A program made the translations under genes and the position numbers. From the NCBI RefSeq assembly GCF_947487515.1, contig NZ_CANKWO010000002.1, positions 310,001-374,000 on the forward strand: a stretch of 64,000 nucleotides of DNA. The letters are read 5' to 3'. This document shows positions 1 through 10,030 of this stretch, one piece after another; within the stretch, counting starts at the first letter, position 1, and each line of letters begins with the position of its first letter. The notes under the pieces were generated by a model. It had not been told where the DNA came from. It ran no database searches and was given only the letters and a program-made list of their open reading frames with translations. The stretch is from an uncultured Litoreibacter sp. (GTDB taxonomy: Bacteria; Pseudomonadota; Alphaproteobacteria; Rhodobacterales; Rhodobacteraceae).

Positions 1-729
1 TTCCAGCTTGGCCCTGATCTGATCCTCACTATAGCCAGCGGCAAGTCCCGCTTGGGCAATTTCCAGAAGGCGACCGAACTCCTTGCTAGGAATATGGCCC
101 CAAGCCTTAAGCGTTTCACCTGTAATTTCTATCTGTGTCATTGTTTTCTCTTCACCCGCTGAATAATCAACGCTTTTTTCAATTTTCAAATATGCCGTAG
201 GCACGTGATCCGTCAGCCAGACACCATTGTCGGCCTGATAGAATGCGTACCCGGCTCGGTGCATTTCACCCGCAGCCACAATCAAGATCACCGGCGCACC
301 ATGGCGCGCGCCAACCTTGAGAGCCGTTTGCGGGTCACCCGATAAATGCACCTGCTGGCGAGACATCGGGCGCAGCCCATCAGTCATGATCGCCGTGACG
401 GTCACCTCTGCTGTACCATGGTAAAGCCGCGATGGCGGTTCAATCGCTTCCACACCGAGATCAACGGCAATCGAATGTCCTTGAGCGGCACGGATTTGGT
501 CGCCCGTATCCGACAAGCTAAGCCGTTTTTTGTCATTGGTTTCCACAATTTCGACCAGTTGAGCTTGGCTTATGGGCAGGTCGTGGTCGGCCAATGCCGT
601 CAGCAACACTTCCACCGCAACCCACCCCTCTGAATCGGGCGTTAGGTCAAGCTTCTCGGGCGTATGGCGCAAAACCTGCGCTAACAACCTGCTCACTTTT
701 TGCAGGTGTTTTTTCTCTTTGTTTGTCAT
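1..729 (-). CDS. kptA: RNA 2'-phosphotransferase KptA/Tpt1, in-frame with an RtcB-like N-terminus (partial)
   Basis: The reading frame starts at the ATG at 729 and stays open to the window edge (243 codons seen). Residues 1-185 match KptA/Tpt1, which removes an RNA 2'-phosphate with NAD+. Visible motifs are LRH (R21-H22), RAAQGHS (R80), LYHGT (about 102-106) and MSRQQVHLS (R124). Known family members are about 180 aa, so a stop is expected near residue 190, but none occurs. The frame continues through EEKT-MTQIEITG into a segment (residue 197 on) that resembles the N-terminus of long RtcB-family ligases. The ATG at 141 has a GAAGAG purine run just upstream and could be an internal start. It begins 5 nt after the helical-repeat gene, so it is the last visible cistron of the Ro60 unit. 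The KptA call is firm; the RtcB reading of the tail is inference. Confidence 0.85.
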   Translation of the reverse strand, partial: MTNKEKKHLQKVSRLLAQVLRHTPEKLDLTPDSEGWVAVEVLLTALADHDLPISQAQLVEIVETNDKKRLSLSDTGDQIRAAQGHSIAVDLGVEAIEPPSRLYHGTAEVTVTAIMTDGLRPMSRQQVHLSGDPQTALKVGARHGAPVILIVAAGEMHRAGYAFYQADNGVWLTDHVPTAYLKIEKSVDYSAGEEKTMTQIEITGETLKAWGHIPSKEFGRLLEIAQAGLAAGYSEDQIRAKLE

Positions 730-734
730 CTTCT

Positions 735-1751
735 TTAACTCTCTTGGGCGGACAGATTTCCGACCCATTTCTTGTGATAATACGTCATGCGCCATTGCAC
801 GGATTTCGCTTTGTCATTGGTCAGCGACATGACCAAACCGTCGCCTTCAGGTGCCCCGACCGTGATCAGGTAATCAGCGGCCAGACTACGCAGTTTGGCG
901 CTTTTGTCTTGACCGGCATGGCGCAGCACCATCGCACGGGTATCCGATGAGACCTCTACCGCGCGTTTTTCGCGACGCGGTACTTTCTGGCGCTGGTTGA
1001 AGACCTTGTCATGCCACACCCAATCAGAGCCTTCGGTCCAACGGGCATGGCCTGTCAGCAAAGTTTCGACTGCAACAGCGCGTACAAATACCGATTGTGC
1101 ACACAGCGCCAAATCGGGCAAAGCCCAATCATAGTCAGGACTGCGCAGAAGTTGCCGTAACGAACCTCCCAACGGCCCAGTTGCGGTTTCCATGAACGTC
1201 GCTTTGACGACCAACGGCCAATCACGATACGCCGCCAACATCTGCGCCACTACAGCACCACCGCGTTCCCAACGGGCAACACGGTCCAGCACAAAAAGGC
1301 AAAGCGGGACCAACTCCTCCTGGCTCAACTTTGGCAAAACAGCCTCAAGTCGAGAAAAAGCGGCTTTGCGAACTTTAGCTGCCCAATCGTTGCGCCGCAG
1401 CAAAAGTGCCGTTAGCGCGGCGGTATCCTCCATTGGTGCAACCCGCACAGCGCGCGCGCGGAGACGCCCATCAGCGGCATGTATTACAAGCAACCCTAAG
1501 GAAGGATTTCTGGAAAATTGCACCCCCCAATCAACAGGGCCTGATTTGGCAATCCACGACACCACCCTGGAAGCAGCTCGCACAGGCGCACGATACGCTT
1601 TGCTCCGAAACGGCTGATCAAGCTGGGCCACTTGTTGCGGGCTTAGTAACTTGCGACGCTCTTCAAACAATGACAGCGCAAACGGATCAAGCTTGCCATT
1701 TGCGGCCTGCCATGCGGCATCAAATCGAGATATGTCTTGGTTCAGTTTCAT
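735..1751 (-). CDS. HEAT-like helical-repeat protein of the RNA-repair operon
   Basis: A protein of about 338 aa from the ATG at 1751; the frame is open further upstream, but only this start leaves the last Y-RNA-like element intact. I recognise no catalytic motif. The middle (about residues 100-250) is a run of amphipathic helices typical of HEAT/ARM-type scaffolds, for example an ALLLRRNDW segment and a VRKAAFSRLEAV helix. The C-terminal third is basic. It lies between the Y RNA/tRNA array and kptA, with 5 nt to kptA, so it is co-transcribed with Ro60. Helical-repeat proteins commonly bind RNA or protein, so an accessory role with Ro60 or the repair enzymes is plausible but unproven. Confidence 0.7.
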   Translation of the reverse strand: MKLNQDISRFDAAWQAANGKLDPFALSLFEERRKLLSPQQVAQLDQPFRSKAYRAPVRAASRVVSWIAKSGPVDWGVQFSRNPSLGLLVIHAADGRLRARAVRVAPMEDTAALTALLLRRNDWAAKVRKAAFSRLEAVLPKLSQEELVPLCLFVLDRVARWERGGAVVAQMLAAYRDWPLVVKATFMETATGPLGGSLRQLLRSPDYDWALPDLALCAQSVFVRAVAVETLLTGHARWTEGSDWVWHDKVFNQRQKVPRREKRAVEVSSDTRAMVLRHAGQDKSAKLRSLAADYLITVGAPEGDGLVMSLTNDKAKSVQWRMTYYHKKWVGNLSAQES

Positions 1752-1779: not shown

Positions 1780-1906
1780 CAGAACAAGGCATTTGCAGGA
1801 TGAATTTCCGCCACCAGATTGCTCTGGGCTGGGGTTGAACCAGCACGGGCCCGAGGGCCCTACCCATGAAGGGCTGCGTCTACCTGTAATCCTGCAGGCA
1901 TTTCTG
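1780..1906 (-). ncRNA. Y-RNA-like element F (T-arm type)
   Basis: Minus strand. The ends pair as CAGAA/TTCTG. Next comes the shared 5' signature AAATGCCTGCAGGATTACAG, and GCAGGAT pairs with ATCCTGC on the 3' side. The 3' signature AAATGCCTTG precedes the closing arm. Inside are a GC hairpin (GGGCCC/GGGCCC), a tRNA-type T arm (GCTGG-TTCAACC-CCAGC) and a CCAGA-GCAA-TCTGG hairpin with a GNRA loop. It is the last RNA before the helical-repeat gene and the most divergent of the six. Confidence 0.6.
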
Positions 1907-1915
1907 ACTATGGTC

Positions 1916-1989
1916 CCGGGGGACGAGGATGCGTGAGATGGGTTTCCCCGACCGTTTTGAGCGATGTAATCCCACGGGCATTCCCCCGG
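1916..1989 (-). ncRNA. Y-RNA-like element E (minimal, no tRNA arms)
   Basis: Minus strand, about 74 nt. An 8-bp closing helix CCGGGGGA/TCCCCCGG is followed by the shared ATGCCCGTGGGATTACATC signature. The upper helix GTGGGAT/ATCTCAC includes one G-T pair, and the 3' signature is ATCCTCG. The only internal structure is GGG-GAAA-CCC; there is no T or D arm. It therefore looks like a bare Ro60-binding stem. It begins 17 nt after the 3' end of tRNA-Gln. Confidence 0.65.
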
Positions 1990-2006
1990 TTGCTTCCTTT
2001 CGTTCT

Positions 2007-2082
2007 TGGCTGGAAGGGCAGGACTCGAACCTGCAACACACGAGATCAAAACCCGTTGCTCTACCAATTGAGCTACCTTCCA
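2007..2082 (-). tRNA. tRNA-Gln (TTG), array copy
   Basis: Complete cloverleaf with encoded CCA. The acceptor is TGGAAGG/CCTTCCA, the D stem GCTC/GAGC, the anticodon arm ACGGG-TTTTGAT-CTCGT (anticodon TTG), the T arm GCAGG-TTCGAGT-CCTGC, and the discriminator G. Its sequence differs clearly from the other tRNA-Gln(TTG) at 9956-10030. It sits 4 nt after tRNA-Asn, so both come from one precursor. Confidence 0.93.
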
Positions 2083-2086
2083 ATAT

Positions 2087-2161
2087 TGGCTCGGCTGGTA
2101 GGGATCGAACCTACGACATCCTGATTAACAGTCAGGCGCTCTACCACTGAGCTACAGCCGA
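2087..2161 (-). tRNA. tRNA-Asn (GTT)
   Basis: Complete 75-nt cloverleaf with encoded CCA. The acceptor is TCGGCTG/CAGCCGA, the D arm GCTCAGTGGTAGAGC, the anticodon arm CCTGA-CTGTTAA-TCAGG (GTT), and the T arm GTAGG-TTCGATC-CCTAC. It lies between Y-like element D and tRNA-Gln in the Ro60-linked RNA array. Confidence 0.95.
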
Positions 2162-2174
2162 ATAAATCTTTGGT

Positions 2175-2277
2175 GGAAGACAAGTGATTGTGAGACGTTT
2201 TCCCCAGATGCGTTCGCGTCTGGTTCGGCGCGACTCGAACGCGCTTTCAACCGATGTAGTCCCACAGGCATTCCTCC
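2175..2277 (-). ncRNA. Y-RNA-like element D (T-arm type)
   Basis: Minus strand, about 103 nt. The closing helix is GGAGGA/TCTTCC (one G-T pair), the 5' signature ATGCCTGTGGGACTACATC, the upper helix GTGGGAC/GTCTCAC, and the 3' signature ATCACTTG. It carries a T arm GCGCG-TTCGAGT-CGCGC and a CCAGA/TCTGG hairpin, but no D arm. It is flanked closely by tRNA-Pro and tRNA-Asn. Confidence 0.7.
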
Positions 2278-2286
2278 TGTTAAGTT

Positions 2287-2364
2287 TGGTCAGGGATGGA
2301 GGATTTGAACCTCCGACTTCCGCAGTCCAAGTGCGGCACTCTAACCAGCCTGAGCTAATCCCTG
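2287..2364 (-). tRNA. tRNA-Pro (TGG)
   Basis: Complete 78-nt cloverleaf with encoded CCA. The acceptor is CAGGGAT/ATCCCTG, the D stem GCTC/GAGT, the anticodon arm CCGCA-CTTGGAC-TGCGG (TGG), the T arm GGAGG-TTCAAAT-CCTCC, and the discriminator A. It is placed 8 nt after Y-like element C and 9 nt before element D. Confidence 0.95.
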
Positions 2365-2372
2365 AGTTTTGG

Positions 2373-2505
2373 TCCCTGGCGACAAGGAAAGGGTGAAACA
2401 TTACGCGCTCTATCCGCTGAGCTATCCCGCCATGGTAGCAGGAGTGGGATTCGAACCCACGACCTCGACATCCACAATGTAGTTCCAACCAGCATTCGCC
2501 AGGGA
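2373..2505 (-). ncRNA. YrlA-type Y RNA, element C
   Basis: Minus strand, about 133 nt. A perfect 10-bp closing helix TCCCTGGCGA/TCGCCAGGGA is followed by ATGCTGGTTGGAACTACAT, whose parts pair with ATGTTTCACC. Its GGCGAATG fits the Ro60-binding consensus I recall for bacterial Y RNAs (G-N-CGAA-N0-1-G). It has a T arm GTGGG-TTCGAAT-CCCAC, then an acceptor-like helix TCCTGC/GCGGGA closed by a loop, then a D arm GCTCAGCGGATAGAGC. The order is a tRNA circularly permuted at the anticodon stem, as in Salmonella YrlA. Confidence 0.85.
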
Positions 2506-2515
2506 TGATTTCGGG

Positions 2516-2634
2516 TCCGGCAACAAGGGACGGTGAAATGGCATGTGCTCTACCAACTGAGCTACAATCGCTTTGTGCGCGAAGGGTGGGGCTCGAACCC
2601 ACGACAAAATGTATTTCCACCAGCATTTGCCGGA
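2516..2634 (-). ncRNA. YrlA-type Y RNA, element B
   Basis: Minus strand, about 119 nt. The closing helix is TCCGGCAA/TTGCCGGA, the 5' signature ATGCTGGTGGAAATACAT, and the upper helix GGTG(g)AAAT/ATTTCACC has a bulged G. The 3' signature is GTCCCTTG. Between them lie a T arm GTGGG-TTCGAGC-CCCAC, a loop-closed acceptor helix around CTTCGC/GCGA and a D arm GCTCAGTTGGTAGAGC. This is the same permuted-tRNA arrangement as element C. Confidence 0.85.
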
Positions 2635-2694
2635 TTGTATTCCTTTCAACTCGTTTCAAGCAGTTGACGCTTTCACGTCTGTGTTCAATTGGTT

Positions 2695-2766
2695 GGGTCA
2701 GGCGGACAAGAAATCCGTGAGACGGGACATTAACAGATGTAGTCCCACAGGCATTCCGCCTGACCC
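2695..2766 (-). ncRNA. Y-RNA-like element A (minimal, no tRNA arms)
   Basis: Minus strand, beginning 6 nt after the Ro60 stop codon. A perfect 12-bp closing helix GGGTCAGGCGGA/TCCGCCTGACCC encloses ATGCCTGTGGGACTACATC, an upper helix GTGGGAC/GTCTCAC and the 3' signature ATTTCTTG. An internal GGGAC/GTCCC pairing could compete with the upper helix. It has no tRNA-like arms. The spacer to element B (2635-2694) holds two weak hairpins (GACG/CGTC and CAACT/AGTTG). Confidence 0.72.
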
Positions 2767-2772
2767 TATGTT

Positions 2773-4329
2773 TTAGACCTCCACAGCTTTGATTTGGCCG
2801 ACCCAGTGGTCTGACCCCATCTTATCGTTCGCGAAGGCCGCGATCTGGTCAAAGACCGTGTCCGAGAACCCGCCAATGTTCAGCACGTCCTCACGCTCTT
2901 TCGCTTGCGTGGTCCCGTAAGGGGCGATGTCGATACAGACCAGTTTGGCCTTGGGGTTACGCTTTTTGAGCTTTTCCCACGCTCGCATCATCACCGTCCC
3001 GTTGTTCCCGTAAGCTGCATGCGCCCACGACTGGTTGTCGGACACCATGATTACCAGATCAGGGGCACGCCCCTTTGCCAGCAACCAATCAAGCGGTGCC
3101 GCACAGTTTGTCCCGCCGCCCCACTGTTCTGCCAAACGCGCGGCGTTAGTCAGAATGGTGTCGCGTGGTTCCAACCGCAGATCACGCACCTTGTCCTCAA
3201 ACGGCAATACTGTTGCCGATGGGTTTTGGCGCAGGATCGCCGCAGAAACGAGACCTGCCACATCCACAAAACGCGTCACCGTGGTGGCCCCCTTGCGGAA
3301 ACCAGTCACAGCGCTAGACATGGACCCAGATACATCTGGGCAGACCACGACCTGACCGCGCAGTTTTGGTACGTTACGCACCGAAAGCTCCATGGCGTCA
3401 TGCAGCGCATTCCGGATTTCCACCGGCATATCAGCAGACAACGCCTGATAGGCGGTCATCAATTGGTATGGGAACACCCGCGCTTTTGCGATCTTGTTAG
3501 GATCACGCAGGGTGGCCGCAATATGCGCCCGCATCTTTGGCAAGGCCAACACCCCATGACGCTGAAACGTGTTCAGATTCATACGGGTCATCTGCCAAGA
3601 AGCGTTTTCAGCGATCTTTGACCACTGCTTGGTGGACAAAGACAGCTGCGTCAGCATCTGGAATGGCACGTTAGGAACTGCCCCCTTGCCGGTTTCCTTA
3701 AACCGGAGGAAGTCCTGCACAACCGCTGGCAGCAACGAGACATCACATGGCCGCCCGATGATCCAAGCAAACAAAGCTTCACGCGCTTGATTGGCCGGCT
3801 TTGGGTGCACCATCTTGATCACATCCGCCAAGGACGGATCGTTGCCGATATTGGCCTGCAAGATCGTCCGGTCGGACGCCTCATTCAGCCAGTTGGCCAC
3901 CATCCGCTTTGGCGCAGAGCCAAGCGATTTCCGTCCCGTCTGCCCAGATCGCATGATCTGCACGAATGTCCGCAGCATTTTGCCGTTGTCCACAACCCGT
4001 CCGAAAACACGCTGGAACAAGATCGGATCACGCCCAGCCAGAACTGCCAGCAAAAAGGCTGGCATGTCCTTCATATGCCCGGATTTGCGGGTATAGACGG
4101 CGGTTTGCGCCAAAAATGACGGATCAACCTTATTTGCCAATTCCAAGGTGCGGGATAGTTCCTGCATCGGATCTTGGTAGTATGTTGCACCAAAGGTCCC
4201 AGTCATCGCGACTTGGGCCAGGGCATGTGCATCAGAATATCGGTAGGCCGGTGCACCCGCAGCGTTTTGGGTATTGGTTGCAGGAAGCAACCGGCCTTTG
4301 ATTGATGCAAACACGGATTTGTTTGCCAT
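2773..4329 (-). CDS. rsr: Ro60/Rsr TROVE-domain RNA-binding protein
   Basis: About 518 aa, the usual bacterial Rsr length. An N-terminal TROVE/HEAT ring (about residues 30-320) is followed by a vWA domain with a MIDAS motif DVSGSMSS near residue 330. Ro60 proteins bind Y RNAs on the ring surface and act in quality control and degradation of damaged or misfolded RNA. I chose the ATG at 4329 because AAGGA lies about 8 nt upstream; an ATG three codons earlier (4338) would overlap that site. It heads the leftward unit whose next product is the Y RNA/tRNA array, and is divergent from rtcR. The pairing of Rsr with adjacent Y RNAs and rtc genes is known from Salmonella and others. Confidence 0.95.
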   Translation of the reverse strand: MANKSVFASIKGRLLPATNTQNAAGAPAYRYSDAHALAQVAMTGTFGATYYQDPMQELSRTLELANKVDPSFLAQTAVYTRKSGHMKDMPAFLLAVLAGRDPILFQRVFGRVVDNGKMLRTFVQIMRSGQTGRKSLGSAPKRMVANWLNEASDRTILQANIGNDPSLADVIKMVHPKPANQAREALFAWIIGRPCDVSLLPAVVQDFLRFKETGKGAVPNVPFQMLTQLSLSTKQWSKIAENASWQMTRMNLNTFQRHGVLALPKMRAHIAATLRDPNKIAKARVFPYQLMTAYQALSADMPVEIRNALHDAMELSVRNVPKLRGQVVVCPDVSGSMSSAVTGFRKGATTVTRFVDVAGLVSAAILRQNPSATVLPFEDKVRDLRLEPRDTILTNAARLAEQWGGGTNCAAPLDWLLAKGRAPDLVIMVSDNQSWAHAAYGNNGTVMMRAWEKLKKRNPKAKLVCIDIAPYGTTQAKEREDVLNIGGFSDTVFDQIAAFANDKMGSDHWVGQIKAVEV

Positions 4330-4458
4330 TTCTTTCATCCTTCACTTGGTTTGTGAGGAAGTTTTCGCCGGTTTTTGCTGAAACGAGAAGAAAAAACGAA
4401 TTAGACGTAAGTTATTGTTTTTGAACCGCAAATTACGATTCGAGAAACTTTGACGTCA

Positions 4459-4486
4459 AAATGGCGATTGATATATATCGCCATTT
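4459..4486. promoter_or_regulatory. perfect 10-8-10 inverted repeat between rsr and rtcR
   Basis: AAATGGCGAT and ATCGCCATTT are exact inverted copies separated by 8 A/T-rich bases. The repeat ends 18 nt before the rtcR start and about 130 nt upstream of the rsr start. This suits an upstream activator site for the leftward unit and an autoregulatory site for rtcR. A separate TGACGTCA palindrome lies at 4451-4458. Binding by RtcR is inference. Confidence 0.55.
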
Positions 4487-4504: not shown

Positions 4505-6079
4505 ATGAAAAAGAACGTGGTCATTGGCTTTCTGGGAACGAATCTGGATGCAGGCAAACGCCGGCGTTGGCGGCCTTCTGTTCAATTGGTCGAGCATAGT
4601 GATTTTCCGGTGGATCGCTTCGAATTGATCCATTCCGCGCGCTGGTCAGGGCTGGCCGAAAAGATCAAAACCACAATTGAGTATACCAGCCCCAAAACCG
4701 AAGTCTTGCTTCAACCCATGGAGATCCGCGATCCTTGGGACTTTGAAGAAATGTACGGCGCGATGTTCGATTTCGCTAGAAACTATGGCTTTGACGACGA
4801 ACGTGAAGACTATCACATCCATCTAACGACAGGCACACATGTCGCCCAGATTTGCTGGTTCTTGCTGGCAGAGGCCCGTCATATTCCCGCCAAGTTGATC
4901 CAGACTGGTCCGCCACGTGGAGAAGACGAAGGTCCCGGCAGCCTACAAGTCGTTGACCTGGATTTGTCGCGCTACAACGCGTTGCAGCAGCGTTTCGATC
5001 TGGTCAGCAAGGAATACAACACCCTGCTCAAGGGTGGTATCGACACACGCAACGCAGCTTTCAACACGATGATTGAGCGCATGGAGGTCGTGACGTCAAA
5101 CTCTGATGCTCCTTTGTTGCTGATGGGGCCAACAGGGACTGGAAAGTCTGATCTTGCTGCAAGACTGTACGAACTCAAACTGCAACGTCGCCGGATCAAA
5201 GGTCGGTTGGTGCATGTGAATTGCTCAACCCTGAAGGGCGAACGCGCCATGTCGACGCTTTTTGGCCACCGCAAACAGGCGATCCCTGGGGCGGGTGCCG
5301 ATCGACGCGGTTTGCTGCAAGAAGCCGACGGCGGTGTGTTATTTTTGGATGAAATTGATGAACTTGGTCTGGATGAACAGGCCATGATCCTGCACGCAAT
5401 CGAAACGGGGAAGTATTTTCCATTAGGGTCGGACTATGAGGTTACCAGCCGCTTTCACCTAATTGTGGGGTCCAGCCGAGACCTTGCCGAAATGGTGGCG
5501 AAAGGTCGCTTCCGTGCGGATCTATTTGCCCGCTTGAACCTATGGACCTTTACCCTTCCAGCACTGCGCGACAGACCTGAAGATATCGCGCCCAACATCG
5601 CCTTCGAGATGGCCCGCGTTGAAAAATTGCTGGGTAATCGGATCACCTTTAACGCAGATGCGCAGATCGCCTATCAGAAATTCGCTACTGATCCGGGCAC
5701 GTGCTGGCGCGGTAATTTCCGCGATCTGAGTGCGTCAATCCAGCGAATGTGCACCTTGGCTCCTCGTGGGCGCATCACGCACACGATGGTCACCGCCGAG
5801 ATCGAGGCTTTATCGAAAACATGGCATCACGCTAGCAATGATCCCGATATGCAGCTCATCACAGAGCACCTCGGCGAAAGAGCTGCAAACATTGATGAAT
5901 TCGACCGCGTTCAACTGGCTGCTGTCATCCGCGTGTGCAGACAAAGCGCCAGTCTCAGTGCCGCTGGCCGCCGCCTTTTCGCGGCTTCTCGGGCTGCAAA
6001 GGCAAGCCGGAACGATGCCGATAGGCTTCGCAAGTATCTTGAGAAGTTCGGACTGGATTGGGGCTCCTGCCAAAACTGA
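4505..6079 (+). CDS. rtcR: RtcR-like CARF-AAA+ transcriptional activator
   Basis: 524 aa, close to the roughly 530 aa of known RtcR. The N-terminal CARF-type sensor (about 1-180) starts with VVIGFLGTNLD and carries LTTGTHV; in Salmonella this domain senses tRNA fragments. The AAA+ domain has Walker A GPTGTGKS (about 208-215) and Walker B GGVLFLDEID (about 276-285). The sigma-54 contact loop, GAFTGA in the family, reads QAIPGA after LFGHRK (about 257). The C-terminal part (about 460-524) is a Fis-like helical DNA-binding region. It is divergent from rsr and upstream of rtcB2. The degenerate loop raises doubt that it works with sigma-54. Confidence 0.9.
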   Translation: MKKNVVIGFLGTNLDAGKRRRWRPSVQLVEHSDFPVDRFELIHSARWSGLAEKIKTTIEYTSPKTEVLLQPMEIRDPWDFEEMYGAMFDFARNYGFDDEREDYHIHLTTGTHVAQICWFLLAEARHIPAKLIQTGPPRGEDEGPGSLQVVDLDLSRYNALQQRFDLVSKEYNTLLKGGIDTRNAAFNTMIERMEVVTSNSDAPLLLMGPTGTGKSDLAARLYELKLQRRRIKGRLVHVNCSTLKGERAMSTLFGHRKQAIPGAGADRRGLLQEADGGVLFLDEIDELGLDEQAMILHAIETGKYFPLGSDYEVTSRFHLIVGSSRDLAEMVAKGRFRADLFARLNLWTFTLPALRDRPEDIAPNIAFEMARVEKLLGNRITFNADAQIAYQKFATDPGTCWRGNFRDLSASIQRMCTLAPRGRITHTMVTAEIEALSKTWHHASNDPDMQLITEHLGERAANIDEFDRVQLAAVIRVCRQSASLSAAGRRLFAASRAAKASRNDADRLRKYLEKFGLDWGSCQN

Positions 6080-6332: not shown

Positions 6333-7487
6333 ATGAATATTGGGTATTACTCCATGGGCAATTCTGTCTTGGATGGCCGTATGTCTGCTGCGAACAGCGA
6401 CTGCGCCATCACTAAATTCTATACGTCTGCAGCTTGGATCGAGGGCCGCGCTGAACAACAGCTCGAACACGTTGCCGGATGGTCCGGCGTCCGTAAAATC
6501 GCCGCCTTTCCTGACCTGCACCCCGGAAAGTACGGGCCCGTTGGGTGTGCCGTATTGGCGGATCGCATCTTTCCGCAGTTGATCGGCAACGATATCGGCT
6601 GCGGCATGTCCTTGTTCCAGCTTGATTTGCCTTTGCGCAAATTCAAGATGGAAAAGGCGGTGCGCCGCATACGCGTGCTGAGCGAGTCGGTAACCGACGA
6701 CACTGGATGCCGCTTTGAGGAAATTGGCCTGCAACCAGACCTGTTCGCGTCGTCTCTCGGCACGATTGGTGGTGGCAATCACTTTTGCGAAGTGCAAACG
6801 CTGGTCGAGAGCGAGGCTGACCTAAACCTAGACAAAACGGTGACCTACCTGCTTGTCCATTCGGGATCACGTGGTTTTGGGAACGCCGTTCTGGGCGCGA
6901 TCCCGCAGGGCGCATTTTCAGGGATGCATCCCGATGACGCGGCCGCACATGACTACGTGCAAAGCCATGACAAGGCGGTCCTATGGGCTAGCCTAAATCG
7001 CCGGATCATAGCTGAACGCGCGGCCGAGGCATTGCGTACGGACCTGCATCTGATTGCGGATGCGCCGCACAATCTACTGACGCGGGATGTTGATGGTTGG
7101 TTGCACCGCAAAGGGGCGGCAAGTGCTGCCTCTGGTCTTGTTCCACTGGCCGGATCGCGGGCAACACCCAGCTACCTTTTGCGCCCAATGCATCAACCAG
7201 ATGCCTTGATGTCCACGGCTCATGGGGCGGGTCGCCGCTATGATCGATCTTCCATGCATGGTCGGGTGCGGTCTAAGCGATCTGATGTCGAAGCAATGCA
7301 ACGAACGTCCTATGGCAGCCGCATCATTTGTGAAGATCGTGACTTGTTGATTGAGGAAGCGCCGCTGGCCTACAAATCATCGCAAAGTGTGGTGGCGGAT
7401 CTGGAAGCAACCGGTGCAGCAAAATCAGCTGCAATGTTTCACCCGCTTTTGACCTTCAAGAAAACACGAAATGGAGGTCGGACATGA
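6333..7487 (+). CDS. rtcB2: RtcB2-type RNA ligase
   Basis: 384 aa. RtcB enzymes join a 2',3'-cyclic or 3'-phosphate end to a 5'-OH with GTP and Mn2+. Hallmarks present are NDIGCGM with the metal-binding Cys (about residue 90), GGGNHFCEV, LVHSGSRGFG and AHGAGRR, which carries the histidine that is guanylylated (about 297). It is shorter than standard RtcB (about 400 aa), as expected for the RtcB2 group that pairs with PrfH. The gene overlaps prfH by ATGA. RtcB2-PrfH pairs are known to repair ribosomes cut in the 16S decoding centre. The start is uncertain: an ATG at 6354 (MGNSVLDG) is an alternative, and neither has a good ribosome-binding site. Confidence 0.92.
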   Translation: MNIGYYSMGNSVLDGRMSAANSDCAITKFYTSAAWIEGRAEQQLEHVAGWSGVRKIAAFPDLHPGKYGPVGCAVLADRIFPQLIGNDIGCGMSLFQLDLPLRKFKMEKAVRRIRVLSESVTDDTGCRFEEIGLQPDLFASSLGTIGGGNHFCEVQTLVESEADLNLDKTVTYLLVHSGSRGFGNAVLGAIPQGAFSGMHPDDAAAHDYVQSHDKAVLWASLNRRIIAERAAEALRTDLHLIADAPHNLLTRDVDGWLHRKGAASAASGLVPLAGSRATPSYLLRPMHQPDALMSTAHGAGRRYDRSSMHGRVRSKRSDVEAMQRTSYGSRIICEDRDLLIEEAPLAYKSSQSVVADLEATGAAKSAAMFHPLLTFKKTRNGGRT

Positions 7488-8125
7488 AACACTACATGCC
7501 AATTTCCCTTCTCATCACCAGTGGCAATGGACCTGCGGAATGCAATCAAGCTGTCGTAGGCATTTTGCAGCATATGCTGGATGAGGCCGCAGCGATCGGC
7601 CTTGATCTGGATGTGAACACCAAGCCTTCAAAGCATGGTGCAAAGTCCGCTGTGGTTGTTGTAAATGGTCTGAGCAATGATGCCTTTGCCCGACGCTGGT
7701 GCGGGACGATCCGCTGGCGTTCCAAAAGCACGTTACGACCGAACCACAAGCGCGCAAACTGGTTTGTTGGTGTTTTCCAATTGACGCGGAACGCCGCCCA
7801 AAAGGTTGTGGTTAACCCCAGCGATGTTGTGTTTGAGAGCTTCCGTGCAGGTGGCCCCGGTGGTCAACATCAGAACACGACAGATAGCGCAGTGCGGGCA
7901 ACGCATCGGCCAACCGGATTGACAGCAGTTGCGCGTGAAATGCGGTCGCAGCATCGCAACAAGTCCCTGGCGCTTGAGCGACTACAGACCTTGATGAATG
8001 CGCAAGCCACAGCAGATTATGAGGCCCAGAAAAGCGATCAGAACCAACTCCACAACACGCTGGAACGTGGCAATCCTATCCGCTGCTTCAAGGGAACCAA
8101 CTTTCGTGAGGAAAGGTGCCTGTGA
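7484..8125 (+). CDS. prfH: Peptide chain release factor homolog PrfH
   Basis: 213 aa class-I release-factor-like protein with the catalytic GGQ in AGGPGGQHQ (about residues 122-130). It lacks the long N-terminal domain and codon-recognition region of RF1/RF2. Known PrfH proteins release the nascent chain from ribosomes whose decoding centre has been cleaved, after which RtcB2 can reseal the 16S rRNA. The start overlaps the rtcB2 stop (ATGA), and the stop overlaps the next start, so translation is coupled along the operon. Confidence 0.93.
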   Translation: MKHYMPISLLITSGNGPAECNQAVVGILQHMLDEAAAIGLDLDVNTKPSKHGAKSAVVVVNGLSNDAFARRWCGTIRWRSKSTLRPNHKRANWFVGVFQLTRNAAQKVVVNPSDVVFESFRAGGPGGQHQNTTDSAVRATHRPTGLTAVAREMRSQHRNKSLALERLQTLMNAQATADYEAQKSDQNQLHNTLERGNPIRCFKGTNFREERCL

Positions 8126-9243
8126 TGGACATGATTGATAACTTTTTAACCGATGCATTGAAAAGTGACCTCTTCGCTGGCGGTCTAGCTTTAGGTGCTT
8201 TTGGCATTGCCGTCGCGTCTTTGCGCGTCGGGATAACTGCGTTCTACAAGCTGGTCATGCGGCGGGTTTGGGTCAGCCTAACGCTGGACAACCGCAGCGC
8301 GGCTTATCGCCATTTTTGCATTTGGATGGAGCATAACAATGTGCTGTCCAAGTCGCGGCATGTGCGGATGACTGATGGTAGATGGTCCAGCGGCACAAAG
8401 GGATATGCACCAGCACCTGGACTGCATTGGTTTTTAAGCCAAGGTAAGATTTGCCGCCTTGAACGCGACATTGACGAGAAGTCCAAAATTGGGAATCCCC
8501 AGAATCAACGTCCAATGGAAACTTTACATGTCACTGTTCTATTCGGCCATGTTGCGACAATCCTTGGATGGATCGAGGCTGGACGACAAATCGCACAAAC
8601 GAAAGATCGCATCGGCCCCGGGCTACACATCCTGAAAGGCGATTACTGGGATAATGTTGGAGATATCCCGCGCCGCTCCATAGATACAGTTGTGGTAGAC
8701 GACGACCGCGTGCTCCGGGTCTTGGAAGACATGCGTTGGTTCTATTCAGCCAGCAACTGGTATGCTGAACGCGGTGTGCCGTGGCGTCGAGGATATCTGC
8801 TTCATGGCCCACCCGGCACTGGGAAATCTAGCCTAATCCGAGCGCTTGCGTCCGAGCTGTCTCTGGATATCGCAACTCTGGATGCTGGCAGGGCAACGCT
8901 GACAGATGATGATCTTCGTGAAGCGATGATTTGTGCGCCGAAACGCTCGTTGATCATGACGACGAACCATAAGGAAAAGCTGGACCCTGCTCTGATCCGA
9001 CCTGGTCGTGCTGACGTGCATACCGAATTGGGGTTGGTGAATGCTAAAACGGCTCGGCAGTTGTTTGATCGGTTCTTCCCAGATGAGGCGATGCTTGCGG
9101 AGCAGTTTCAAGAAAGCCTGGGATCTCAGAAAGCTAGCCCAGCCGAAATTCAGGGCTGGTTGTTGGCAAACAGCTCTGATCCCTCAAAAGCCGCTCTTGC
9201 GACAGGTTTGTTGCGCGATCCGGACATCATGGCGGCAGAGTAA
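8125..9243 (+). CDS. BCS1-like AAA protein lacking the Walker B segment
   Basis: 372 aa from the ATG at 8125, which has GAGGAAAGG 8 nt upstream and overlaps the prfH stop by one base. An N-terminal hydrophobic segment (about 12-35) suggests membrane anchoring. A BCS1-type middle region leads to Walker A GPPGTGKSS (about 227-235). In BCS1 relatives, APKRSLILLEDID and some 40-50 further residues precede the FMTTNH segment. Here APKRSLI joins MTTNHKEKLDPALIRPGR directly, so the Walker B Asp-Glu is absent. The result could be a non-hydrolysing AAA protein or a decayed one. Its place in the rtcB2-prfH operon suggests a linked role, but its substrate is unknown. Confidence 0.85.
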   Translation: MDMIDNFLTDALKSDLFAGGLALGAFGIAVASLRVGITAFYKLVMRRVWVSLTLDNRSAAYRHFCIWMEHNNVLSKSRHVRMTDGRWSSGTKGYAPAPGLHWFLSQGKICRLERDIDEKSKIGNPQNQRPMETLHVTVLFGHVATILGWIEAGRQIAQTKDRIGPGLHILKGDYWDNVGDIPRRSIDTVVVDDDRVLRVLEDMRWFYSASNWYAERGVPWRRGYLLHGPPGTGKSSLIRALASELSLDIATLDAGRATLTDDDLREAMICAPKRSLIMTTNHKEKLDPALIRPGRADVHTELGLVNAKTARQLFDRFFPDEAMLAEQFQESLGSQKASPAEIQGWLLANSSDPSKAALATGLLRDPDIMAAE

Positions 9244-9955: not shown

Positions 9956-10030
9956 TGGCTGGGATGGTAGGATTCGAACCTACGATCTACTGTACCAAAA
10001 ACAGTTGCCCTACCGCTAGGCCACATCCCA
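9956..10030 (-). tRNA. tRNA-Gln (TTG), housekeeping-type copy
   Basis: Complete 75-nt cloverleaf with CCA. The acceptor is TGGGATG/CATCCCA, the D arm GCCTAGCGGTAGGGC, the anticodon arm ACTGT-TTTTGGT-ACAGT (TTG), and the T arm GTAGG-TTCGAAT-CCTAC. It stands alone outside the island. Comparison with the array copy at 2007 shows two different tRNA-Gln(TTG) genes within 8 kb. Confidence 0.95.

Follow-up and report, generated by a model that had tools for sequence, protein, structure and literature searches.

In the 64,000-nucleotide stretch of an uncultured Litoreibacter sp. genome analyzed here (contig NZ_CANKWO010000002.1, positions 310,001 to 374,000; hereafter, the window), a Ro60 gene is followed by a tandem array of nine structured RNAs. 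Six are, judging by homology, structure, and compensatory change, bacterial Y RNAs predicted to bind Ro60, and three are complete tRNAs. The array occupies 1780-2766 on the minus strand in the order Y1, Y2, Y3, tRNA-Pro, Y4, tRNA-Asn, tRNA-Gln, Y5, Y6, with the first RNA beginning 6 nt past the Ro60 open reading frame (ORF). It is flanked by Ro60 on one side and the KptA and RtcB genes on the other; the regulator RtcR lies on the opposite strand. The order, strand, and coordinates agree with a first-pass annotation of the window, and ARAGORN confirms the three complete tRNAs that it had read. The array is real, conserved, and selected, and is a variant of the known Ro60/Y RNA system. Its Y RNAs fall into at least three designs: minimal elements (Y1, Y5), permuted tRNAs opened at the anticodon arm (Y2, Y3), and an element opened in the D loop (Y6). 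Its dedicated tRNAs and its encoded CCA ends are the most telling features. The annotation had not seen that the Y permutations are opened at two points, that Y3 has a CCA end, or that the tRNAs are divergent second copies.

Application of the Rfam gathering thresholds to the array detects the tRNAs only and none of the Y elements. Permissive cmscan searches return full-length matches of RF02553 (YrlA) to Y2, Y3, and Y4, all below the gathering score of 69, and these elements are therefore named YrlA-like and placed outside the Rfam entry. Y1 matches RF02565 (YrlB) weakly at 25.1 bits, under a gathering score of 97, and Y5 is not listed against that family at E up to 10. Since the default thresholds show tRNAs only and the permissive matches are sub-gathering, models were built from other loci: R1 from 43 minimal elements, with the window, L026, and L045 excluded (L-numbers denote Ro60-locus stretches), and R2 from seven elements. 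On the 64 kb, R1 recovers Y1, Y5, Y4, Y3, and Y2 with E values from 1.3e-19 to 6e-9 and nothing further at E up to 1, and R2 recovers Y6 and weakly matches Y4 and Y1, so that all six elements previously called Y-RNA-like are found independently of the window. The matches to both models and the covariation place a conserved two-helix stem with an AAUGC / CUUGU core in all six. The shared 5′ signature quoted in the annotation is present, but Y2, Y3, and Y6 follow the string less closely; Y5 has CUCGU where CUUGU is usual.

Selection on the fold is evident from two alignments. In A1, from which L026, L045, and the window are left out, paired cells amount to 97.1% compared with 82.3% after shuffling, and two-sided changes occur in 10 of 15 pairs compared with a shuffled mean of 5.5. 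A2 gives 96.8% compared with 84.1%, with two-sided changes in 16 of 31 pairs compared with a mean of 6.3; none of 500 shuffles attains the values of either alignment. A2 consists of six of the 13 D-loop-opened elements listed from other loci, plus one of L041. The seven such elements outside it are two from L026 and L045, which are near relatives, one from L019 omitted for no special reason, and four from L010, L011, L032, and L046, which have another head. The selected RNA folds proposed for the array thus hold up in comparison with the Ro60 loci of relatives, in which compensatory changes are found and Y elements recur. Chance similarity as the origin of the Y elements is ruled out by the descriptor controls described below, the model searches, and the covariation. 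A sequencing artefact is ruled out by the recurrence of the array order in other genera, and a two-piece transfer-messenger RNA (tmRNA) was rejected, as ARAGORN reports no tmRNA in the window.

Of 394 genomes of the family, 24 contain Ro60 relatives, and 63 named loci do so as well, including those of Octadecabacter algicola, Litoreibacter roseus, and relatives. A structural descriptor for Y elements consists of an outer helix, UGC core, inner helix, UA[CA]A, and UUGU. With duplicates (L002, L028, L033, L035, L081) and stretches of less than 400 nt downstream left out of the counts, it detects 263 elements on the Ro60 strand of the 80 non-redundant stretches; 70 of these, the window counted, harbor Y elements downstream of Ro60, with up to eight per locus, and ten have none. 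In a chance control on the named loci, the descriptor matches once in 148,090 nt of opposite strand and not at all in 94,891 nt inside Ro60 genes. Five of the six window elements are recovered, Y5 being missed because of its CUCGU. When 258 distinct elements are sorted by rules, 69 are minimal, 101 have a T arm, acceptor, and D arm (98 plus three of Leu type), 14 have their opening in the D loop, 57 have a T arm and fit no further class, and 17 are long and lack a T arm. The mixture of an expanded Y set with tRNAs, which had been described as unusual, is real but not a one-off, given these 70 stretches and the same-strand tRNA calls within 1.5 kb downstream of Ro60 at 34 of 79 non-redundant loci. 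L026, L029, L030, L031, L046, and others share a long Y element (TGCCnAAGGAACTACAT...GGTTCAACTCCCCTC...GCGCCCAGACGG...) that has a T-arm-like hairpin and no D arm and is absent from the window. Approximately 465-580 nt past Ro60 in L026, inspection by eye shows a structured non-Y element, also present in L027, in which GTTGAATGC / GCATTCAAC form the closing helix and a T-arm-like hairpin is included.

A tRNA-like head in at least one member is taken by us as a criterion for bacterial Y RNAs; such heads are present in Y2 and Y3 (T arm, acceptor, and D arm) and in Y6. A T arm followed by a D arm, counted regardless of acceptor pairing, occurs in 102 of the 263 elements. When permuted elements without room for a loop and identical ones are dropped, the 7-nt acceptor strands of the remaining 88 distinct loop-bearing elements, with 64 different 5′ acceptor strands among them, form a mean of 6.60 pairs, compared with 3.77 when the strands are re-dealt (maximum 4.22 in 1000 runs). 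Because the strands pair far above the re-dealt expectation, the head is the top half of a tRNA, circularly permuted, with the Ro60 stem standing for the anticodon arm. The acceptor of Y2 has five of seven pairs formed and no CCA. In Y6 and its kin, the sides of the D arm lie at both ends, the T arm and acceptor lie inside, and the Ro60 stem is placed in the D loop. This D-loop opening is a second permutation point and looks new against the open-access papers searched.

A CCA separated from the 3′ acceptor strand by a single base, the spacing of tRNA, is found in 23 of 63 distinct proteobacterial permuted elements, Y3 included (20 of 54 in Alphaproteobacteria, 3 of 9 in Gamma- and Betaproteobacteria). 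At five other offsets, the counts are 0, 1, 0, 0, and 0 in the former and 0, 0, 1, 1, and 0 in the latter. Relative to a chance of 1/64, the binomial p is 3e-27 (n=55, loop >=4), with related sequences in the sample not being independent; the CCA-bearing elements comprise 17 different acceptor stems from 20 loci. These elements are a subset only, as CCA is absent at the acceptor end in 40 of the 63, and none of 25 permuted elements of the remaining phyla has it (Fisher p 1.2e-4). In Y3, N73 is an A at 2436, the linker is a single U at 2432, and the acceptor strands are 2437-2443 and 2425-2431. A generic tRNA pattern running from the T loop to the CCA matches Y3 (C2:312433-312456) and has 57 matches in the genome, compared with 10 for the reversed pattern. 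The encoded CCA in Y heads seems to follow the custom of the host tRNA genes, since the tRNAs read from nine non-alphaproteobacterial loci have no encoded CCA save those of Albitalea (8 of 9), a Betaproteobacterium, and one Ala call. No description of a CCA at the acceptor end of permuted Y RNAs was found in the open-access papers searched. Its presence in proteobacterial Y RNAs looks new and suggests a concrete maturation step.

The combination of G3-U70 with A73 confers alanine tRNA identity. It is present in six permuted Y elements of Planctomycetes and Phycisphaerae (L056, two in L065, L066, L070, L074), most of which have long acceptor loops. Outside these groups, G3-U70 occurs in alphaproteobacterial L003 (with A73) and L024, both without CCA, and in Pragia L047 (G73, CCA). 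A speculative and rather unlikely extension is that some Y RNAs are true precursors of tRNA in circularly permuted form. Cleavage of the acceptor loop by RNase P and 3′ processing enzymes would leave a nicked two-piece RNA on Ro60, with a free CCA end available for charging or for recognition by CCA-binding enzymes, similar to two-piece tmRNA. In that case, Ro60 would hold chargeable or CCA-displaying mimics beside reserve tRNAs as one damage-induced package, and the G3-U70/A73 members from Planctomycetes and Phycisphaerae would be alanine acceptors. Easy processing of Y3 is made less probable by the U before position 1, which could pair with A73, as base pairs of the leader with RCCA reportedly interfere with binding of RNase P (PMC9433436).

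The array tRNAs score 64.6-76 bits with the Rfam tRNA model, above gathering, and possess a complete cloverleaf, anticodon, and CCA. Across the 79 non-redundant loci, the 1.5 kb downstream of Ro60 contains 54 tRNA calls on its strand and none on the opposite strand (117,242 nt); upstream of Ro60, there are seven on the Ro60 strand and none opposite (114,595 nt). Three of the 54 (L041 SeC, L042 Pro(agg), L043 Arg(acg)) are doubtful and resemble Y heads misread as tRNAs; none of them belongs to the set of 42 that end in CCA. These 42, from 26 alphaproteobacterial loci, consist of Asn (14), Gln (12), Pro (11), and Lys (5), and nothing else. On L059, an 8.5-kb contig of a Sandaracinaceae metagenome-assembled genome that could be a phage, eleven tRNA calls are located upstream and two downstream of Ro60, all on one strand.

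The tRNA census of the window's genome comprises 43 Rfam matches and a tRNA-Tyr found by pattern, which Rfam missed, and is incomplete. Within this census, CAU aside, only Asn, Gln, and Pro(UGG) have two differing copies, the second being the array one in each case; the housekeeping tRNA-Gln copy is at 9956-10030. Identical repeats are limited to Asp, which is present three times, twice of these at a contig edge, and an initiator-type Met(CAU), which is present twice. In a second genome whose tRNAs were counted (G328), the array Lys and Asn are likewise differing second copies, and Asp and Glu are doubled too, unlinked; its 45 matches, 43 of them tRNAs by ARAGORN, are also an incomplete census in which no Tyr, Ile, or Ala(UGC) was found. 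The second tRNA-Asp and tRNA-Glu copies of G328 lie in tandem away from the Ro60 locus (G328:C1:793374-793524, L209), and a special operon around them was rejected as their neighbours, judged by eye, resemble pheS and pyruvate kinase. Elsewhere in the Litoreibacter genome, beyond the window, a fragment with the 3′ end of tRNA-Cys recurs 9.8 kb from the complete gene (G000:C1:880677-890467, fragment at C1:890444), a pattern like that at the distal boundary of an integrated element. In the 18 genomes searched, housekeeping tRNA-Asn hardly varies, and the array-type Asn forms a separate lineage. Exact anticodon-arm patterns, which miss array tRNAs of other sequence, locate array-type Asn in 8 and array-type Pro in 3 of the 394 family genomes, always at the Ro60 locus, and match none of the 370 genomes without Ro60. 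Dedicated tRNAs within a Ro60/Y array look new against the open-access papers searched.

The features of the locus are collected in Table 1. Ro60, the array, the ORF that follows it, KptA, and RtcB probably form a single operon, as their shared gene order and strand suggest. A Pfam search of the product of this ORF gives no match. KptA is located directly upstream of RtcB, although ligation by RtcB is not known to produce a 2′-phosphate. Adjoining RtcR, a divergent unit at 6333-9243 on the plus strand encodes an RtcB-family ligase, RtcB2-like as judged from its neighbour, together with a PrfH-like RF-1 protein and a BCS1-like ATPase. The ligase and PrfH-like protein are likely a ribosome-repair pair next to the tRNA-repair genes. 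Between Ro60 and RtcR, an inverted repeat (ATGGCGAT-N8-ATCGCCAT) is present at 4461-4484; a conserved operator upstream of Ro60 at this repeat was rejected, as none is visible by eye in ten relatives.

Table 1. Features of the Ro60 locus, with positions in the window unless stated otherwise
Feature	Position	Strand	Evidence
Y1, minimal Y RNA; 12-bp outer helix, inner helix, AAUGC / CUUGU core	2695..2766	-	R1 75.1 bits, E 1.3e-19
Y2, YrlA-like; T arm then D arm, permuted tRNA opened at anticodon arm	2517..2633	-	RF02553 66.9 bits, E 6.6e-15; R1 38.3 bits
Y3, YrlA-like; permuted tRNA top half, 7-bp acceptor	2373..2505	-	RF02553 63.8 bits, E 5.3e-14; R1 41.7 bits
CCA inside Y3, at tRNA positions 74-76	2433..2435	-	one base past 3′ acceptor strand; generic tRNA pattern
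tRNA-Pro(UGG), A37, CCA encoded; divergent second copy	2287..2364	-	ARAGORN, Rfam tRNA
Y4, Y RNA lacking a D arm; one T-arm-like and one further hairpin	2171..2278	-	R1 51.5 bits; RF02553 42.6 bits, E 7.2e-8
tRNA-Asn(GUU), CCA encoded; divergent second copy	2087..2161	-	ARAGORN, Rfam tRNA
tRNA-Gln(UUG), A37, CCA encoded; divergent second copy	2007..2082	-	ARAGORN, Rfam tRNA
Y5, minimal Y RNA, CUCGU replacing CUUGU	1916..1989	-	R1 72.7 bits, E 6.5e-19
Y6, tRNA-Leu-like module opened in D loop; GCAA-capped acceptor hairpin	1780..1906	-	R2 129.3 bits, E 1.1e-30
Ro60/Rsr protein gene (TROVE and Ro60 vWA)	2773..4338	-	Pfam PF25045 3.7e-16, PF05731 1.7e-7
Gene downstream of array, HEAT-like by eye only	738..1751	-	ORF
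KptA/Tpt1 RNA 2′-phosphotransferase	130..729 (translated span; gene 3′ end not fixed)	-	PF01885 3.2e-44
RtcB-like ORF after KptA, outside window	stretch L132, 8233-9690	same strand as array	by eye
RtcR regulator, divergent, QAIPGA replacing GAFTGA	4505..6079	+	PF06956 2.1e-72

The chances are about even that the locus is a tRNA-damage kit, in which a ligase, Ro60 with its Y RNAs, and reserve tRNAs are combined. We infer the following course of induction, processing, binding, and replenishment. RtcR would sense broken tRNA, by analogy with Salmonella RtcR, which binds tRNA fragments and is activated by damaged tRNA (PMC7790460), and would activate one long transcript covering Ro60, the RNA array, the downstream gene, KptA, and RtcB. 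Enzymes of tRNA processing would excise the tRNAs and thereby also the Y RNAs. RtcB, with KptA, would rejoin cut RNA, and the Asn, Gln, and Pro tRNAs would replenish the isoacceptors lost most often from divergent reserve copies that are idle in normal growth. The Y RNAs would bind Ro60 via their common stem and bear exchangeable heads (none, or permuted tRNA tops) that may gate Ro60 and recruit tRNA-handling proteins, or act as decoys for a tRNA-cutting enzyme; Ro60 and its Y RNAs would handle or gate damaged RNA. The reserve-tRNA idea has a precedent in the Anabaena trn operon and in phage tRNAs, both compared below. Support for the proposal comes from the recovery and covariation of the six Y elements, the placement of the tRNA calls on the Ro60 strand, the confinement of the CCA-ending ones to four amino acids, their status as differing second copies in the two genomes counted, and the restriction of array-type Asn and Pro to Ro60 loci.

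Several observations weigh against this proposal. Control of the locus differs from that in Salmonella, since no sigma54 is detected and RtcR is without GAFTGA. A search for sigma54 RpoN (PF04552) in the window's 99.83% complete genome gives zero matches; across the family, 19 Ro60-bearing genomes were tested, and searches of 15, this one among them, detected no RpoN. GAFTGA is missing from the window's RtcR and, in all, from 34 of 35 alphaproteobacterial RtcR readings (four of them duplicate records), with near forms in L044 (GAITGA) and L083 (GAMTGA) and GAFTGA retained in L025. The readings from other groups have G[AS][FY]TGA in 23 of 23 cases; the site was unread in 15 alphaproteobacterial stretches and L085. 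A sigma54-dependent RtcR regulon was rejected on the QAIPGA motif together with the lack of a detected RpoN, and RtcR, an activator of the sigma54 type, seems to have moved to another control mode. By term count, the main text of PMC7790460 does not mention tRNA-Asn, -Pro, or -Lys and mentions tRNA-Gln(CUG) once. A permuted Y RNA could also compete with tRNAs rather than assist them. The tRNAs are optional at Ro60 loci, as 45 of 79 have no tRNA call in the 1.5 kb. Moreover, the anticodon loop is identical to that of the housekeeping copy in 12 of 14 array Asn and 4 of 5 Lys tRNAs, which are thus not obviously nuclease-resistant; position 37 differs from housekeeping only in Pro (A37 in 11 of 11 and in the window) and some Gln (A37 in 3 of 12 and in the window).

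Alternatively, the tRNAs may serve as punctuation, with cleavage by RNase P and 3′ tRNA nucleases freeing the adjacent Y RNAs and decoding being incidental. tRNAs are good processing signals, Y elements lie on both sides of 37 of the 42 CCA-ending array tRNAs, and the gaps in the window are short. This role is nevertheless improbable: Y1, Y2, and Y6 of the window adjoin no tRNA, the 45 loci just mentioned have no tRNA call, and any tRNA would do, yet the 42 are confined to Asn, Gln, Pro, and Lys. The retention of the T arm, D arm, and covarying acceptor in the permuted elements would also suit a decoy array, in which the tRNA-like Y RNAs, and perhaps the tRNAs, absorb tRNA-cutting or -modifying enzymes during damage without refilling the pool. 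YrlA has been proposed as a possible competitive nuclease inhibitor in PMC7790460, whose authors observed no YrlA fragments. We regard this as doubtful, however, since heads opened at the anticodon arm are without the part that anticodon nucleases cut, and the array tRNAs retain complete cloverleafs with paired anticodon stems. It is highly unlikely that the tRNAs are passengers, raw material or by-products of the recombination that builds tRNA-like Y heads and kept by descent with no function of their own: array size varies (six Y elements in the window compared with eight by descriptor in Octadecabacter algicola, whose Ro60 is 95% identical), the Asn/Gln junction itself scores 22 bits with YrlA, and L033 apparently retains just the start of tRNA-Gln (by eye), but 42 tRNAs from 26 loci extend intact as far as the CCA, none of the 54 downstream calls is on the strand opposite Ro60, and array-type Asn and Pro are nowhere else in the 394 genomes.

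With a ligase, Ro60, Y RNAs of many designs, and dedicated spare tRNAs gathered in what is apparently a single operon, both the role of Y RNAs in RNA-repair operons and the putative link from RtcR sensing to recovery of the tRNA pool are directly testable in named marine isolates such as Octadecabacter algicola, Litoreibacter roseus, and relatives.

Y RNAs are reportedly found near Ro60 in more than 250 species, a figure from a 2014 paper on YrlA. The location of Y RNAs next to Ro60 and the tRNA mimicry of YrlA are already known (PMC7790460, PMC11472068), and in one Y RNA structure the YrlA head superposes on tRNA as a circular permutation (PMC11472068). The Salmonella-type rsr-yrlBA-rtcBA operon (RF02553, RF02565; structure 6CU1) resembles the array in its position adjacent to Ro60 in an rtc operon with RtcR, its Ro60-type stem, and its permuted tRNA-like head. 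That operon has two Y RNAs, compared with six here and up to eight elsewhere; the elements described here score under the Rfam cut-offs and add a D-loop permutation point (Y6), a CCA at the acceptor end (Y3), and interleaved true tRNAs. In two-piece tmRNA and permuted tRNA genes, the 3′ half precedes the 5′ half with a spacer by the CCA end, an arrangement that the permuted Y elements share. Unlike in those genes, which are on record (PMC3985003, PMC3978253), the Ro60 stem here replaces the anticodon arm, and ARAGORN makes no tmRNA call. In Anabaena, a silent tRNA operon is controlled jointly with rtcB under translational stress (PMC10272220). This trn operon with TrcR is comparable in holding a second tRNA set apart from the housekeeping one and in being co-controlled with RtcB, and differs in its 26 tRNAs, plasmid location, and ribbon-helix-helix (RHH) repressor in place of RtcR, with no Ro60 or Y RNA named in the parts of PMC10272220 that describe it. 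Phages provide a further parallel: 359 phage records match the window's Ro60 (tblastn, E up to 1e-5), and phage tRNAs have been proposed to be insensitive to anticodon nucleases (PMC10264068). Myxococcus phage Mx1 (L208, 48915-66561) carries a Ro60-like gene, 48.5% identical to that of the window, amid a tRNA cluster with a peptidyl-tRNA hydrolase. Mx1 and the array are alike in setting a Ro60-type gene among tRNA genes, whereas the tRNAs of the phage are scattered over kilobases between other genes.

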